Part shown: piece by piece, positions 3,876 through 44,769 of the stretch
How positions within the stretch are numbered: the first letter of the stretch is position 1
Layout: the number at the start of each line of letters is the position of its first letter
Assembly: GCA_903898675.1 (NCBI GenBank)
Contig: CAIUGM010000022.1
Span: 248,001-312,000 of the forward strand
From: an uncultured Verrucomicrobiota bacterium
Lineage (GTDB): Bacteria > Verrucomicrobiota > Verrucomicrobiia > Opitutales > Opitutaceae
Direction: 5' to 3'
DNA length: 64,000 nt
Program-made: the position numbers and the translations under genes
Notes under the pieces: generated by a model
The model's input: only the letters and a program-made list of their open reading frames with translations
What the model was told of the DNA's origin: nothing
Database searches by the model: none

Positions 3876-3964
3876 AAAAGTTGAAGGTTGAGAGGTGAAA
3901 GTTGAAAGAGTGACAGCAAGCCTTCGAGCTGGCTGCTGATTCTTTCAACCCACAACATTCAAAT
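3876..3964. repeat. heptamer-type inverted repeat (H1)
   Basis: Left arm TTGAAGGTTGAGAGGTGAAAGTTGAAAG; right arm CTTTCAACCCACAACATTCAA, approximately reverse-complementary 7-bp units around a short spacer. Confidence 0.6.
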
Positions 3965-10897: not shown

Positions 10898-11971
10898 TTG
10901 CCTGAATCGAAAATCGAGAATCCAAAATCGAAAATCCCCTCGCCCGCGGCGACGGGCACGAGCTTCATCACCTCCGCGCTCGCTTCACCGGTCTCGCCGG
11001 TCGAGGCCGCGTTGCGCCCGCTCTCGTTCAGCGACTTTGCCGGCCAGCCGAAAACCGTCGAGCGGCTCAAGGTCATGGTCGGCGCCTCGAAACGCCGCGG
11101 TGAGGCGCTGAACCACATTCTGCTCTCCGGCCCTCCCGGCCTCGGCAAGACCACCCTCGCGTTTATCCTCGGTCACGAACTCGGCCGCACGGTGCGCGTC
11201 ACCTCGGGGCCCGTGATTGAAAAGGCCGGCGACCTCGCCGGGCTCCTGACCAACATGGAGGAGGGCGATATCCTCTTCATCGACGAGATCCACCGCATCC
11301 CGAAGACCGTCGAGGAATACCTCTACAGCGCGATGGAGGACTTCCGCCTCGACATCATGATCGACCAGGGCCCGAACGCCCGCAGCGTCCGGCTCTCGAT
11401 CCCGAAGTTCACGCTCATCGGCGCCACGACACGCTCCGGCCTGCTGACCGCCCCGCTCCGCTCGCGCTTCACGCTCAACACCCGGCTCGATTACTACGAC
11501 CGCGCCACCCTCGAGGGGATTGTCCTCCGCAGCTGCGGCCTGCTGAAGGTCGAGATCGACGACGGTGGCGCCAAGGAGATCGCCTCGCGCGCCCGCGGCA
11601 CGCCGCGCATCGCCAACAATCTGGTCAACTTCGTCCGCGACTATGCCTCGGAGAAGGCGGACGGCAAGATCACCAAGCCCGTCGCGGCCGCCGCGCTCGA
11701 GCTGCTGGAGATCGACGCCGCCGGCCTCGACGAGATGGACAAGCGCGTGCTGCGCCTGATGGCCGAGCACTACCAGGGCGGCCCTGTCGGCCTCGGCACC
11801 ATCGCCATCGCCGTCGGCGAGGAAGCCGAGACCCTCGAGGAAGTCCACGAACCGTTTCTGATCCAGGAAGGCTACCTCGCCCGCACCGCCCAGGGCCGCA
11901 TCCTCACCGCCAAGGGCTACCACGCCATCGGCCTGAAGGCCGCGACGGGCGACCAGCAGTCACTGCTATAA
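10898..11971 (+). CDS. ruvB: Holliday junction branch migration helicase RuvB
   Basis: LRPLSFSDFAGQPKTVERLKVMVGASKRRGEALNHILLSGPPGLGKTTLAFILGHELG...DILFIDEIHRI. Start codon uncertain (TTG at 10898 or internal). Confidence 0.93.
   Translation: MPESKIENPKSKIPSPAATGTSFITSALASPVSPVEAALRPLSFSDFAGQPKTVERLKVMVGASKRRGEALNHILLSGPPGLGKTTLAFILGHELGRTVRVTSGPVIEKAGDLAGLLTNMEEGDILFIDEIHRIPKTVEEYLYSAMEDFRLDIMIDQGPNARSVRLSIPKFTLIGATTRSGLLTAPLRSRFTLNTRLDYYDRATLEGIVLRSCGLLKVEIDDGGAKEIASRARGTPRIANNLVNFVRDYASEKADGKITKPVAAAALELLEIDAAGLDEMDKRVLRLMAEHYQGGPVGLGTIAIAVGEEAETLEEVHEPFLIQEGYLARTAQGRILTAKGYHAIGLKAATGDQQSLL
10905..10941. repeat. heptamer array (H3) at the ruvB 5' end
   Basis: ATCGAAA ATCGAGA ATCCAAA ATCGAAA ATCCCC. 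Confidence 0.65.
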
Positions 11972-15161: not shown

Positions 15162-15173
15162 CAAGCAGAGGTG

Positions 15174-15246
15174 CCCACGGAACACACGGAATACACGGAG
15201 AAAATTCAGCTGGTTTCATTTTCGTGTATTCTGTGTGTTCCGTGGG
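15174..15246. repeat. approximately 9-bp-unit inverted repeat (N3)
   Basis: CCCACGGAACACACGGAATACACG ... CGTGTATTCTGTGTGTTCCGTGGG, 24-bp arms with one mismatch. Confidence 0.8.
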
Positions 15247-15253
15247 CCAAAAT

Positions 15254-23200: not shown

Positions 23201-24301
23201 ATGAATTTTGCCAAACACTGGGCCGCCAGCCTTGACGACTATGTGATCGACCTCGCCTGGTCGCCGGACGACACGCTGTTGGCCGCGGCCTCCGCCGCCG
23301 GTAGCGTCACGATTTACGACGCCGCGACCGGGACTGTGCAACACACCCTCAAGGGCCACGACGACGGCGCCAATTGCCTCGCGTGGCTGCCGGGTGGCAA
23401 TCAGCGGTCAGCGATCAGCGGTCAGCTTTTGGCCACCGGCGGACAGGATGGATTCGTCCGTCTCTGGGATGCGGCGACCGGGCAGCAAACCGCCGAAATC
23501 AAGCTCGGCTCCGCCTGGGTCGAACACTTGGCATGGATACCAAGTCAGAATAAAGGGCCGGTCACCGACGATCCGGCCTCCCGCCTCCCGCCTCCCGCCT
23601 CCGGCCTGCTCTTCGCCTCCGCCGGCAAGAAACTCGTCGCCCTGAATCCCGACGGCTCGCTCGCCCATACTTTCCCCGACGCCCCCAAGACCATCTCCGC
23701 CCTGGCGCTTTCTCCTTTCTCCCTTCTCCCTTCTCCCTCCTCCCTTCTAGCCGCCGCTTGCTTCGGCGAAGTCGTGATCTGGGACACGGTGAATTTCACC
23801 GCCCGCAAGACGCTCCCCTACGGCAATGCCGTCCTCGCGCTCACGTGGTCGCCCGATGGCCGCTGGCTCGTCGCGGGCTGCCACGACAACGCCGTCCATC
23901 TCTGGGTGCCGGGCGAGGATCTCGAGCTGCACATGAGCGGTTACGAAACGAAGCTGCAGGAGCTGTCGTTCAGCCGTGACTCCAAGTGGCTGGCCACCGG
24001 CGGCGGCCGCGATGCCTGTGTGTGGGACTGCACCGGCGCCGGGCCCGAGGGCCGTGAACCCCTGTTGCTGCCGCACGAGGCCCGCGTCTGCGCCGTGGCC
24101 TTCCAGCGCGAGCACGGGCTGCTCGTCACCGCGGCGACCAACGGCGAGTTCTGCCTCTGGTCCCCGACGCGGAAAAACCCGCTCGTCGCGGAGGTCAAGA
24201 TGCCAGCGGCCGCGACGAAGTTCGCCTGGCGCGCAGATGATTCCCTGCTGGCCGTCGGCACGGAGAAGGGCGCGGTGTTTGTGTTCAAGACCGCGGAGTG
24301 A
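23201..24301 (+). CDS. WD40-repeat protein
   Basis: 366 aa; repeated units such as DDYVIDLAWSPDDTLLAAASAAGSVTIYDAATG and LLATGGQDGFVRLWDAATG. Confidence 0.9.
   Translation: MNFAKHWAASLDDYVIDLAWSPDDTLLAAASAAGSVTIYDAATGTVQHTLKGHDDGANCLAWLPGGNQRSAISGQLLATGGQDGFVRLWDAATGQQTAEIKLGSAWVEHLAWIPSQNKGPVTDDPASRLPPPASGLLFASAGKKLVALNPDGSLAHTFPDAPKTISALALSPFSLLPSPSSLLAAACFGEVVIWDTVNFTARKTLPYGNAVLALTWSPDGRWLVAGCHDNAVHLWVPGEDLELHMSGYETKLQELSFSRDSKWLATGGGRDACVWDCTGAGPEGREPLLLPHEARVCAVAFQREHGLLVTAATNGEFCLWSPTRKNPLVAEVKMPAAATKFAWRADDSLLAVGTEKGAVFVFKTAE
23401..23428. repeat. heptamer array (H4) inside WD40 CDS
   Basis: TCAGCGG TCAGCGA TCAGCGG TCAGCTT. Confidence 0.75.
23573..23607. repeat. heptamer array (H5) inside WD40 CDS
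   Basis: CCGGCCT CCCGCCT CCCGCCT CCCGCCT CCGGCCT. Confidence 0.85.
23708..23749. repeat. heptamer array (H6) inside WD40 CDS
   Basis: CTTTCTC CTTTCTC CCTTCTC CCTTCTC CCTCCTC CCTTCTA. Confidence 0.85.
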
Positions 24302-38465: not shown

Positions 38466-38640
38466 TTTCCAAATGACAAATTCCATGGGCCCAACAAACC
38501 GGACCAACCGCAAAAATCAGGCAACCTCTTCCGCATTTTCGCTCTTCCGTCCTTTCGCGATCTCTAGGCCTTCAGTTTCTGCCCTTCCCCGGTTCTTTGG
38601 CCTTTGGTCCCTTGGCGTTTTGAGTTTTGCCTTTGCCCAG
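38466..38640. repeat. heptamer-type array (H7) spanning the 5' part of SBP copy 3
   Basis: AAATTTCCAAATGACAAATTCC ... CTTTGGC CTTTGGT CCCTTGG CGTTTTG AGTTTTG CCTTTGC. Confidence 0.6.
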
Positions 38641-39717
38641 TCTGGCCATGCCGCCGACGCAGACCCCATCAAGATCGGCCACTTCGGCTCGCTCACCGGC
38701 AAGGAGGCCGCCTTCGGCACCGCCACCCGCAAGGGCATCATCCTCGCCATCGAGGAACTCAACGCCGGCGGTGGCGTGCTCGGCCGGCCCGTTGAATACG
38801 TCGGCGAGGACATCCAGTCCAAGGCCGGCGAGTCCGCCACCTCCGTCAAGAAGCTGCTCTCCCGCGACAAGGTCGTCGCCATCCTCGGCGGCAACCCCTC
38901 GAGCAATTCCCTCGAGGCCGCGCCGCTCTGCCAGAACGCGAAGATCCCCATGATGGCGATCTCGTCCACCAACCCGCGCGTCACGGAGATCGGCAGCTAC
39001 ATCTTCCGCATCTGTTTCATCGACCCGTTCCAGGGCGCGGTGCTGGCGAAGTTCGCCCACGACCACCTGTCGGCGAAGCGGATCGCCCTGCTCACGCCGG
39101 TCACGCCGTACGGCATCGGCCTGTCCAACGCCCTGCGGAAGCGCTTCACCGAGCTCGGGGGCGAGATCGTCGCCGAGCAGAAATACGCCGAGGGCGACAA
39201 GGACTTCAAGGCGCAGCTCACCTCGATCCGCACGCAGCAGCCCGACGTGATCGCCGCCACCGGCTACTACACCGAGGCCGCGCTCATCTGCCTGCAGGCG
39301 CGCGAACTCGGCCTCAATGTCCCGGTCATCGGTGGCGACGGCTGGGAAGCCCCGCAACTGGTCGAGCTGGGCGGCAAGGCCGTCGAGGGCACGTATTATT
39401 CCACCGGCTTCTCCGCCAGCAATGTCGCCCCCGAGGTGCAGGGTTTCGTCAAGCGCTACCGGGCCCGCTGGAACGGCGAGGTGCCCGAGGCGGTGGCCGC
39501 GCTCGGCTACGACGCGATGATGCTCTACGCCGACGCCATGCGCCGCATCGGGACCACCGACGGCTCCAAACTGCGCGCCGCCATCGCCGCGACCAAGGAT
39601 TTTCCCGGGGTGACCGGCCGGATCACCATCGACGAACAGCGCAACAGCTCGAAGCGCGCGGTGATCCTGACGGTGAAGAACGGCAAGACGGAGTTCGTGG
39701 CGGCGGTCGCGCCGTGA
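38473..39717 (+). CDS. branched-chain amino-acid-type ABC substrate-binding protein (copy 3)
   Basis: DPIKIGHFGSLTGKEAAFGTATRKGIILAIEELNAGGGVLGRPVEYVGEDIQSKAGESATSVKKLLSRDKVVAILGG; start uncertain. Confidence 0.92.
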   Translation: MTNSMGPTNRTNRKNQATSSAFSLFRPFAISRPSVSALPRFFGLWSLGVLSFAFAQSGHAADADPIKIGHFGSLTGKEAAFGTATRKGIILAIEELNAGGGVLGRPVEYVGEDIQSKAGESATSVKKLLSRDKVVAILGGNPSSNSLEAAPLCQNAKIPMMAISSTNPRVTEIGSYIFRICFIDPFQGAVLAKFAHDHLSAKRIALLTPVTPYGIGLSNALRKRFTELGGEIVAEQKYAEGDKDFKAQLTSIRTQQPDVIAATGYYTEAALICLQARELGLNVPVIGGDGWEAPQLVELGGKAVEGTYYSTGFSASNVAPEVQGFVKRYRARWNGEVPEAVAALGYDAMMLYADAMRRIGTTDGSKLRAAIAATKDFPGVTGRITIDEQRNSSKRAVILTVKNGKTEFVAAVAP

Positions 39718-39735
39718 GGCGCTTTGCGCCCCCGT

Positions 39736-40168
39736 AGTTGAGAGTTGAGTGTTGAGAGTTGAGAGAATCGACTCGGCCCATGTTCAACTTCGAGAAGTTG
39801 GCTGTCTGGCAAAAGGCCATCTTGTTCGCCGGAATGGTTTACCGGATGACCCAGCCGTTCCCGCCTGACGAACGCTTTGGCCTGACCAACCAGATCCGGC
39901 GAGCCGCCAATTCGATCGCCTCGAATATCGCGGAAGACTCGGCCAGGCCGCCGGCCGATTTTGCGCGGTTTCTCGGGTATGCTTCCGGTTCGCTCAACGA
40001 GGTGGTAACCCAAGCCGCCATCGGCAGAAATGAGGGCTTCCTCACGAGCCAAGATTTTGAGCAACTTTATCGTGACGCAGAGGAAATTTCCCGCATGTTG
40101 AGCGGACTGCGAAATTCGCTCGAATAGAACGCTTCCTGCTCTCAACTCTCAGCTCTCAACTTTCAACT
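39736..40168 (+). mobile_element. candidate small mobile element: S23-type four-helix-bundle ORF bracketed by inverted heptamer arrays (H8)
   Basis: Left AGTTGAG AGTTGAG TGTTGAG AGTTGAG (39736-39763); right CTCAACT CTCAGCT CTCAACT TTCAACT (40141-40168). Confidence 0.65.
39780..40127 (+). CDS. four-helix-bundle protein (23S rRNA intervening-sequence/S23, Avd-like fold)
   Basis: MFNFEKLAVWQKAILFAGMVYRMTQPFPPDERFGLTNQIRRAANSIASNIAEDSARPPADFARFLGYASGSLNEVVTQ is the S23 family signature. Confidence 0.92.
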   Translation: MFNFEKLAVWQKAILFAGMVYRMTQPFPPDERFGLTNQIRRAANSIASNIAEDSARPPADFARFLGYASGSLNEVVTQAAIGRNEGFLTSQDFEQLYRDAEEISRMLSGLRNSLE

Positions 40169-40175
40169 ATCCCGA

Positions 40176-41066
40176 GTGACCGAATTCCTCCAGCAACTCC
40201 TGAACGGCCTGTCCCTCGGGGCCATCTATGCGCTGATCGCGCTCGGCTACACGATGGTCTACGGGGTGCTGCGCTTCATCAACTTCGCCCACTCCGATGT
40301 CTTCATGGTGGGGTCGTTCATCGGCTACTATGTCGGCCATCACGTCCCGGAAAACACGGTGTGGGGCGGGCTGGTCGTCCTGTTCGTGGCCATGGCGGGC
40401 TGCGCACTGCTGGGCATGATCATCGAGCGCCTTGCCTACCGGCCGCTCCGCGGGGCGGCCACGCTGAACGTCCTGATCACCGCCATCGGCGTCTCGCTGC
40501 TCCTCGAGTATTCCGGCCAGGTCTTCTTCGGGGCCACGCCCCGCACCTTCCCCTCGGTGTTTCCCTCGACCAATTTCACCCTCGGCACCCTGGTCATCTC
40601 GTCCAACCAGGTGGTCGTGATCGCCGTCGCCACCCTGCTCATGGTGGTGCTGGAGCTGATCGTCTTCCGGACCAAGATCGGCACGGCGATGCGCGCCGTC
40701 TCGCTCAACCCCAAGGCCGCGCAGCTGGTGGGCGTCAACATCGACGTCGTCATCTCCTTCACCTTCGGCCTCGGCTCCGCCCTCGCCGCCGCGGGCGGCG
40801 TCCTCTACGCGCTCAACTACCCGTCGATCGACCCGCTGATGGGCGTGATGCCCGGCCTCAAGGCCTTCGTCGCCGCCGTCCTCGGCGGCATCGGCAACAT
40901 CCCCGGCGCCGCACTCGGCGGCCTGCTGCTCGGGACGGTCGAGACCTTCGTGAACGGCAGCCAGTGGTCGACCTACAAGGACGCCATCGCCTTCGCGATC
41001 CTCATCATCATCCTCCTCTTCCGCCCGGCCGGCCTGCTCGGCAAAGCAAGCGTGGAAAAGGTGTAG
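40176..41066 (+). CDS. livH: branched-chain amino-acid ABC permease LivH
   Basis: GTG start; FLQQLLNGLSLGAIYALIALGYTMVYGVLRFINFAHSDVFMVG. Confidence 0.95.
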   Translation: MTEFLQQLLNGLSLGAIYALIALGYTMVYGVLRFINFAHSDVFMVGSFIGYYVGHHVPENTVWGGLVVLFVAMAGCALLGMIIERLAYRPLRGAATLNVLITAIGVSLLLEYSGQVFFGATPRTFPSVFPSTNFTLGTLVISSNQVVVIAVATLLMVVLELIVFRTKIGTAMRAVSLNPKAAQLVGVNIDVVISFTFGLGSALAAAGGVLYALNYPSIDPLMGVMPGLKAFVAAVLGGIGNIPGAALGGLLLGTVETFVNGSQWSTYKDAIAFAILIIILLFRPAGLLGKASVEKV

Positions 41067-41131
41067 GCTGTAAGTTGTAAGCTCCCCGCTATCGCCCAGA
41101 TCCTTAAAGCTTAAAACTTATCCCTTAAACC
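41063..41131. repeat. heptamer-type inverted repeat (H9)
   Basis: TGTAGGC TGTAAGT TGTAAGC ... CTTAAAG CTTAAAA CTTATCC CTTAAAC; left arm overlaps the livH stop codon. Confidence 0.65.
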
Positions 41132-42906: not shown

Positions 42907-43012
42907 ATTTTCGATTTTGGATTCTCGATTTTCGATTTCCAGTCGACCCACCTGGGTTGCCGTGCGCGCTTTCCGCTCAATCCAAAATCGAGAATCATAA
43001 GTCGAAAATCCC
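42907..43012. repeat. heptamer-type inverted repeat (H10)
   Basis: GATTTTG GATTCTC GATTTTC GATTTCC ... ATCCAAA ATCGAGA ATCATAA GTCGAAA ATCCCC. Confidence 0.75.
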
Positions 43013-44724: not shown

Positions 44725-44769
44725 TTTCCGACCCTCTCAACTCTCAACCACCCACTCGCAACTTTTCCC

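Follow-up and report, generated by a model that had tools for sequence, protein, structure and literature searches.

What is a short S23 gene, framed by facing arrays of heptamers, doing in the middle of an amino-acid transporter operon? Annotations usually call the products of such genes four helix bundle or ribosomal S23 proteins, and the genes are taken to be members of the operons in which they lie. The case considered here comes from the draft assembly of an uncultured Opitutaceae bacterium (G000; 3.52 Mb in 40 contigs), of which a stretch of 64,000 nucleotides (the window) was analysed. As the first-pass annotation had placed it, the gene occupies a short junction of the liv operon, with a binding-protein gene upstream (38473-39717) and livH downstream (40176-41066).

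The inverted arrays around the ORF are real: left and right arrays form a 31-nt inverted pair which is 90% complementary with 373 nt between the arms, and each was called as a 7-bp array by TRF (Table 1). The original description of four units facing four others stands, with the correction that the arrays are imperfect and that the element is best given the bounds listed in Table 1. The assignment of the ORF to the 23S-intervening-sequence/S23 family was borne out by its matches to PF05635 (23S_rRNA_IVP; E = 2.4e-33, 115 bits, curated cut-off 33.8) and TIGR02436 (E = 5e-32, 110.3 bits, curated cut-off 24). It is the only ORF inside the element to match a family (PF05635), so that by the profile match of its ORF the element contains no recognised transposase. 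There was no Rfam match within the 64-kb window, and the element sits outside any 23S rRNA helix. The core of the earlier reading, a compact element of about 430 bp with array-type termini and without a transposase, holds.

Table 1 Array and S23 features of the window, numbered from its first nucleotide
Feature	Position	Strand	Basis or remark
Whole S23 element (array, ORF, inverted array), 435 bp	39735..40169	+	Anatomy common to L001-L073 and filled/empty pairs
Left terminal array, unit GAGTTGA/AGTTGAG, ~4.3 copies	39735..39765	+	Inverted-pair search, TRF
S23 ORF, 115 aa, ATG at 39780, stop at 40127	39780..40127	+	PF05635/TIGR02436; four-helix bundle; PDB 2gsc, 2e-22
Right terminal array, reverse complement of left unit	40139..40169	+	Inverted-pair search, TRF
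ORF-less inverted pair, livH-livM	41060..41131		Right arm GCTTAAAACTTATCCCTTAAACC identical to the L001 arm of the same genome
ORF-less inverted pair, livG-livF	42907..43009		Left arm shares 33 identical nt with the left arm of L004; RNA fold z = -4.0
Single array, L004 unit AATCGAAAATCGAGAATCC	10903..10936		TRF, resident-arm search
Array related to GAGTTGA unit, AGTTGAAGGTTGAGAGGTGAAAGTTGAAAG	3879..3908		Degraded inverted partner just downstream
Short GAGTTGA-related array, inverse orientation, CTCTCAACTCTCAACC...	44734..44763		No partner seen
Inverted 9-bp array pair, unit ACACGGAAT	15173..15247		ORF-less form of analogous GxxExxY-type element

Whether other S23 ORFs also carry arrays had been singled out beforehand as a point on which this reading depended, and arrays were found in the same genome, in its relatives and in other phyla. 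The window genome has four PF05635 loci, and all four ORFs are bracketed by inverted arrays of approximately 7 bp whose unit is different each time (GGTTTAA, GAGTTGA, GTGAAAG and ATTTTCG). S23 was present in 40 of the 57 genomes searched (the window genome and relatives, the latter being species representatives and not strains), at up to 10 copies each. In the family set of 79 S23 loci from 73 stretches, the self-match signal of the arrays (cut-off 14/17) peaked at lags 7 and 14, where 24-32% of S23 flanks passed in comparison to 0-0.6% of 308 control pieces; at lag 7 none of the 308 did so. Inverted complementarity of the flanks exceeded the 99th percentile of shuffled flanks at 62 of the 79 family loci and at 60 of 88 loci from other phyla, the cross-phylum set having been gathered with two close S23 sequences as query. 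Approximately one fifth to one third of S23 loci are without clear inverted arrays, perhaps as a result of decay. It was also observed that at L004 and L073 the S23 reading frame continues into the right array, which encodes the C-terminus, and annotated proteins may therefore include array-derived peptides.

Array units are clade-specific among S23 elements. Among pairs of loci at different sites, those with at least 55% S23 identity had a mean arm likeness of 11.9 vs 7.1 for all different-site pairs (permutation P = 2e-4), and like arms at unrelated sites include L017/L019/L024/L043 (GAGTAGC), L044.1/L071 (GGAATGA) and L003/L061/L072 (GTGAAAG). One clade has an 8-bp unit, AAGGCACA, which was found in Verrucomicrobia, Nitrospirae, Planctomycetes, Deltaproteobacteria, Elusimicrobia and others; both arms contain GGCACA at 24 of 89 cross-phylum loci, from several phyla, vs 1 of 79 loci of the family set. 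Since closely related S23 genes have like units even where their loci are unrelated, the arrays must be considered part of the element. At orthologous loci the two arms of a copy matched each other better than they matched arms from other species (own 16.1 vs cross-species 13.3 overall; 13.3 vs 8.0 at rmlB, one of the three there being independently inserted). Arms at one site therefore diverge together across species, which indicates that their complementarity is maintained.

The first-pass annotation had proposed looking for an empty site between the binding-protein gene and livH, and such sites exist. Across 12 species this junction holds an intact S23 gene (G000, G007 and G014), one with a stop (G004), a remnant (G001), array remnants from which S23 has gone (G011 and G010) or nothing (five others), so that the ORF is not fixed there. 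At the rmlB junction the window genome and G005 share one element (S23 72% identical), G014 has an unrelated element with its own different unit (S23 17-25% identical), and most other species having this junction are empty. Homology confined to the element, with unrelated flanks, was found for L106/L107 within one Opitutales genome (414 bp at 95%) and for L110/L119 (435 bp at 94%); L128 from Planctomycetota and L139 from Nitrospinia are 87% identical and also have unrelated flanks.

Nostocales plasmids contain both filled and empty alleles. At the first junction the empty alleles are 97-98% identical to the filled one; the empty site is AAAAAGTAATTAACAAAT and the filled plasmid reads AAAAAGTAAT-(423 bp)-GTAATTAACAAAT, giving a 5-bp target-site duplication, GTAAT, and element ends AAATCAGAATTCAG and AAAGAAGAACTCAG. 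A further plasmid (L263) has a truncated element remnant at the same site. Overall, duplications were clean at this one site (5 bp), probable at a second Nostocales plasmid junction (3-5 bp) and absent at others, and 4-42 bp of target were replaced at other filled/empty junctions; a single clean duplication does little to establish any particular enzymology. What appears at new sites is the unit of array, ORF and array, it inserts at gene junctions, and inserted copies subsequently decay, leaving arrays behind. The mobility of the element is well supported. The likeness between array and downstream gene start was 6.5 vs 5.5 expected (P = 5e-4), a value confounded by arrays which run into genes; under the same confounding, cases such as livH AAGGTCTGA and unit AAGGTGTAA are suggestive of insertion guided by homology between unit and target.

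Copies without the ORF are also present. In 464 kb of the window genome the arms of the four resident elements occurred 14, 12, 4 and 7 times, vs 0.85, 0.7, 0.15 and 0.15 for permuted units. Most of these are ORF-less inverted pairs; at least 10 such pairs have loops of approximately 25-55 nt, with the arms always in the order unit-then-reverse as in S23 elements, and two sit in the window's own liv operon. ORF-less inverted pairs with the units of resident S23 proteins are thus dispersed in the genome, and these cognate copies indirectly support the suggestion that the element can be mobilised in trans. Looking across species at the livH-livM junction (L074-L085), we observed ORF-less inverted arrays of different families: GTGTAAG in G000, G014 and G009, GGCACAAA-like units in G004 and G010 and CACGGAT-like units in G011 and G012. 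The junction is empty in G018, G007, G001 and G002, and it is an insertion hot spot. The density of ORF-less pairs and heptamer arrays did not distinguish genomes with S23 from those without it in samples of 60-80 kb, which are too small for this comparison. A separate set of three short 7-bp arrays (TCAGCGG, TCCCGCC and TTCTCCC) at 23400-23750 of the window is translated in frame within a WD-repeat-like ORF (23201-24301).

We think it probable that the window element belongs to a family of small mobile elements which have inverted tandem arrays as their ends (mostly of 7 bp, of 8 bp in one clade) and S23 as their sole gene, and in which S23 marks the elements for copying. An S23 oligomer would recognise the cognate unit in both arms, and the arms would be brought together, probably as a DNA or RNA hairpin. 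Such binding would single out both the element and the derivatives which lack the ORF, so that they are copied into gene junctions; the cutting and copying would fall to host functions or to an activity that has gone unrecognised in S23, a protein in which no catalytic domain was recognised. Q38, S45, N49 and E74 are conserved at 99-100% in 156 divergent S23 sequences; the first three are spaced as on one helix face, and from this conservation all four are candidate functional-site residues. The RNA form of the window element folds with z = -5.46, no shuffle being equally good, and its transcript is predicted to form a long closed terminal stem. The inverted arms would fold the transcript in this way, as in rRNA intervening sequences, and RNase III would trim the insertion out; as RNase III can trim such a stem, we propose that insertions between operon genes would be tolerable.

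In the cross-phylum set S23 was co-directional with its upstream neighbour in 71 cases and opposed in 0, and with its downstream neighbour in 57 and 1, respectively. This near-total co-orientation reflects either copying which is tied to transcription or selection which removes the other orientation. S23 elements resemble MITEs and insertion sequences in their terminal inverted repeats, their ORF-less derivatives and the one clean 5-bp target-site duplication, but differ from them in having no transposase, tandem-array termini which vary between clades, variable junctions and a co-orientation with host genes which would be unusual in a DNA transposon and may be due to selection.

The closed stem and the strong co-orientation with operons would also be expected if this were purely an RNA-level intervening sequence, its arms selected as an mRNA stem cut by RNase III, its ORF a passenger and its spread due to homologous recombination of the host operon. 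Coxiella has an intervening sequence in its 23S rRNA which, at 428 nt, is of the same size. Its ends pair in a 28-bp stem, the heptamer GACAGAT is repeated in tandem ahead of the ATG of its S23 ORF, and the authors of that report raise its mobility as an idea (PMC4990558). The joint divergence of arms at orthologous loci (16.1 vs 13.3) and a Flavobacterium pair, L159/L166, which shares approximately 100 nt of flank, fit this explanation too. However, homology which is confined to the element and has unrelated flanks, both within one genome and across phyla, already weakens it, as do the 5-bp duplication around one insertion and the dispersal of ORF-less copies, and we regard it as unlikely. 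The likeness remains close: intervening sequences of 23S rRNA in Coxiella, Leptospira and others are also of approximately 430 nt with one S23 ORF and terminal inverted repeats which form a stem. They lie in rRNA, whereas protein-coding genes flank the window element and its relatives, which are multicopy, have units that differ from clade to clade and have ORF-less derivatives. We infer that the rRNA sequences are likely to be a member or special case of the array-S23 class and not the reverse.

Other mobilisers were considered. A reverse transcriptase (from a DGR, a group II intron or another source) could act in trans on the S23 transcript and mobilise it, S23 then playing the part of Avd, with which it has the four-helix-bundle fold in common (PMC10053308); co-orientation and the variable junctions, with either a target-site duplication or a small deletion, also resemble target-primed reverse transcription. 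The window genome has no RVT_1 match and no DGR context was seen in it, unlike systems in which Avd acts; RVT_1 was also missing from most S23-rich relatives, for example G014, G016, G019, G021, G023 and G029. The RT half of the earlier suggestion was consequently rejected, and this route now appears improbable. Even less probable is a REP/RAYT-type system in which movement of the inverted arrays depends on a Y1 (HUH) transposase and S23 genes hitchhike. Y1 transposases are found in most relatives and the ORF-less pairs look REPIN-like, REPINs being dispersed short inverted doublets cognate to a protein of the same genome (PMC3116915), as the S23 doublets are. But there was no Y1 match in G019, which has 8 S23 loci, nor in the S23 carriers G008, G013 and G002, and the unit tracks the S23 clade; in addition S23 itself lacks a Y1/HUH domain, the arrays are tandem 7/8-bp repeats and not REP palindromes, and the protein gene travels inside the element. 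We therefore rejected the Y1 transposase in trans, and the search for an RT or HUH enzyme suggested by the first-pass annotation gave no general candidate: neither is needed for S23 elements in general. The least credible explanation is that S23 is an ordinary host gene of the operon beside which slippage-prone heptameric microsatellites arise. Heptameric repeats are indeed over-represented in many bacteria (PMC4692102), but slippage does not account for arms which match in inverted orientation, for units which are clade-specific even where the loci are unrelated, or for filled and empty sites, and the clade-specific inverted arms effectively refute a local microsatellite.

The heptameric intergenic repeats which have been described, including TAACTGA in Beggiatoaceae, GGGAATC in Xanthomonas and the STRRs of cyanobacteria, are arrays of 7-bp units between genes, as S23 arrays are; unlike S23 elements they are described as direct arrays, and no link to S23 is made in the text searched (PMC4679880, PMC4692102). 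Groups with such repeats also carry S23, as in Nostocales plasmids and Xanthomonas (XCC0516, PDB 2gsc); 2gsc and 2rld are solved S23 relatives. A search of phage records with the Xanthomonas S23 query gave no match. In the open-access journal literature searched, we found no paper tying S23 ORFs outside rRNA to flanking arrays.

A parallel organisation was observed for GxxExxY ORFs (PF13366, PD-(D/E)XK fold), of which there are 6 in the window genome and which are present in 39 of 54 genomes. These ORFs (loci L281-L310) are bracketed by inverted 9-bp arrays, with a signal at lag 9 in 22% of flanks and in approximately 0-4% at other lags, and an inverted score of 18.7 vs 8.8 for crossed flanks. 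S23 was also observed in CRISPR operons: beside cas1 in L141, L147 and L132 (between cas1 and cas2 in the first two), in the order cas6-S23-cas4 in L252 and cas10-S23-cmr3 in L256. An association of the 23S rRNA IVP with CRISPR adaptation modules has been reported (PMC10910872), and it may reflect element insertion and not function. Finally, L175, on a contig filed under Candidatus Nitrotoga, has S23 DNA 93% identical to Flavobacterium copies and represents either a recent transfer or a misbinned contig.

A wider reading is possible, and we hold it tentatively, with rather less confidence than the mobile-element reading of the window element itself. A large class of bacterial elements would have S23 proteins as its only dedicated mobility proteins. 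These would recognise tandem arrays of 7 or 8 bp and move both ORF-carrying and ORF-less forms, and would be the origin of rRNA intervening sequences and of many heptameric intergenic repeats; GxxExxY nuclease proteins would act likewise with 9-bp arrays. On the mobile-element reading itself, array-S23 elements are a widespread and previously unrecognised kind of bacterial jumping DNA, and they point to transposition without a known recombinase. Nostocales can be cultured, and the filled and empty pairs found on their plasmids open the mechanism to testing. The S23 ORFs of rRNA intervening sequences and the over-represented intergenic heptamers, both puzzles of long standing, gain a genomic home and a likely origin; this class of elements may explain both the insertions in rRNA genes and many of the 7-base repeats.
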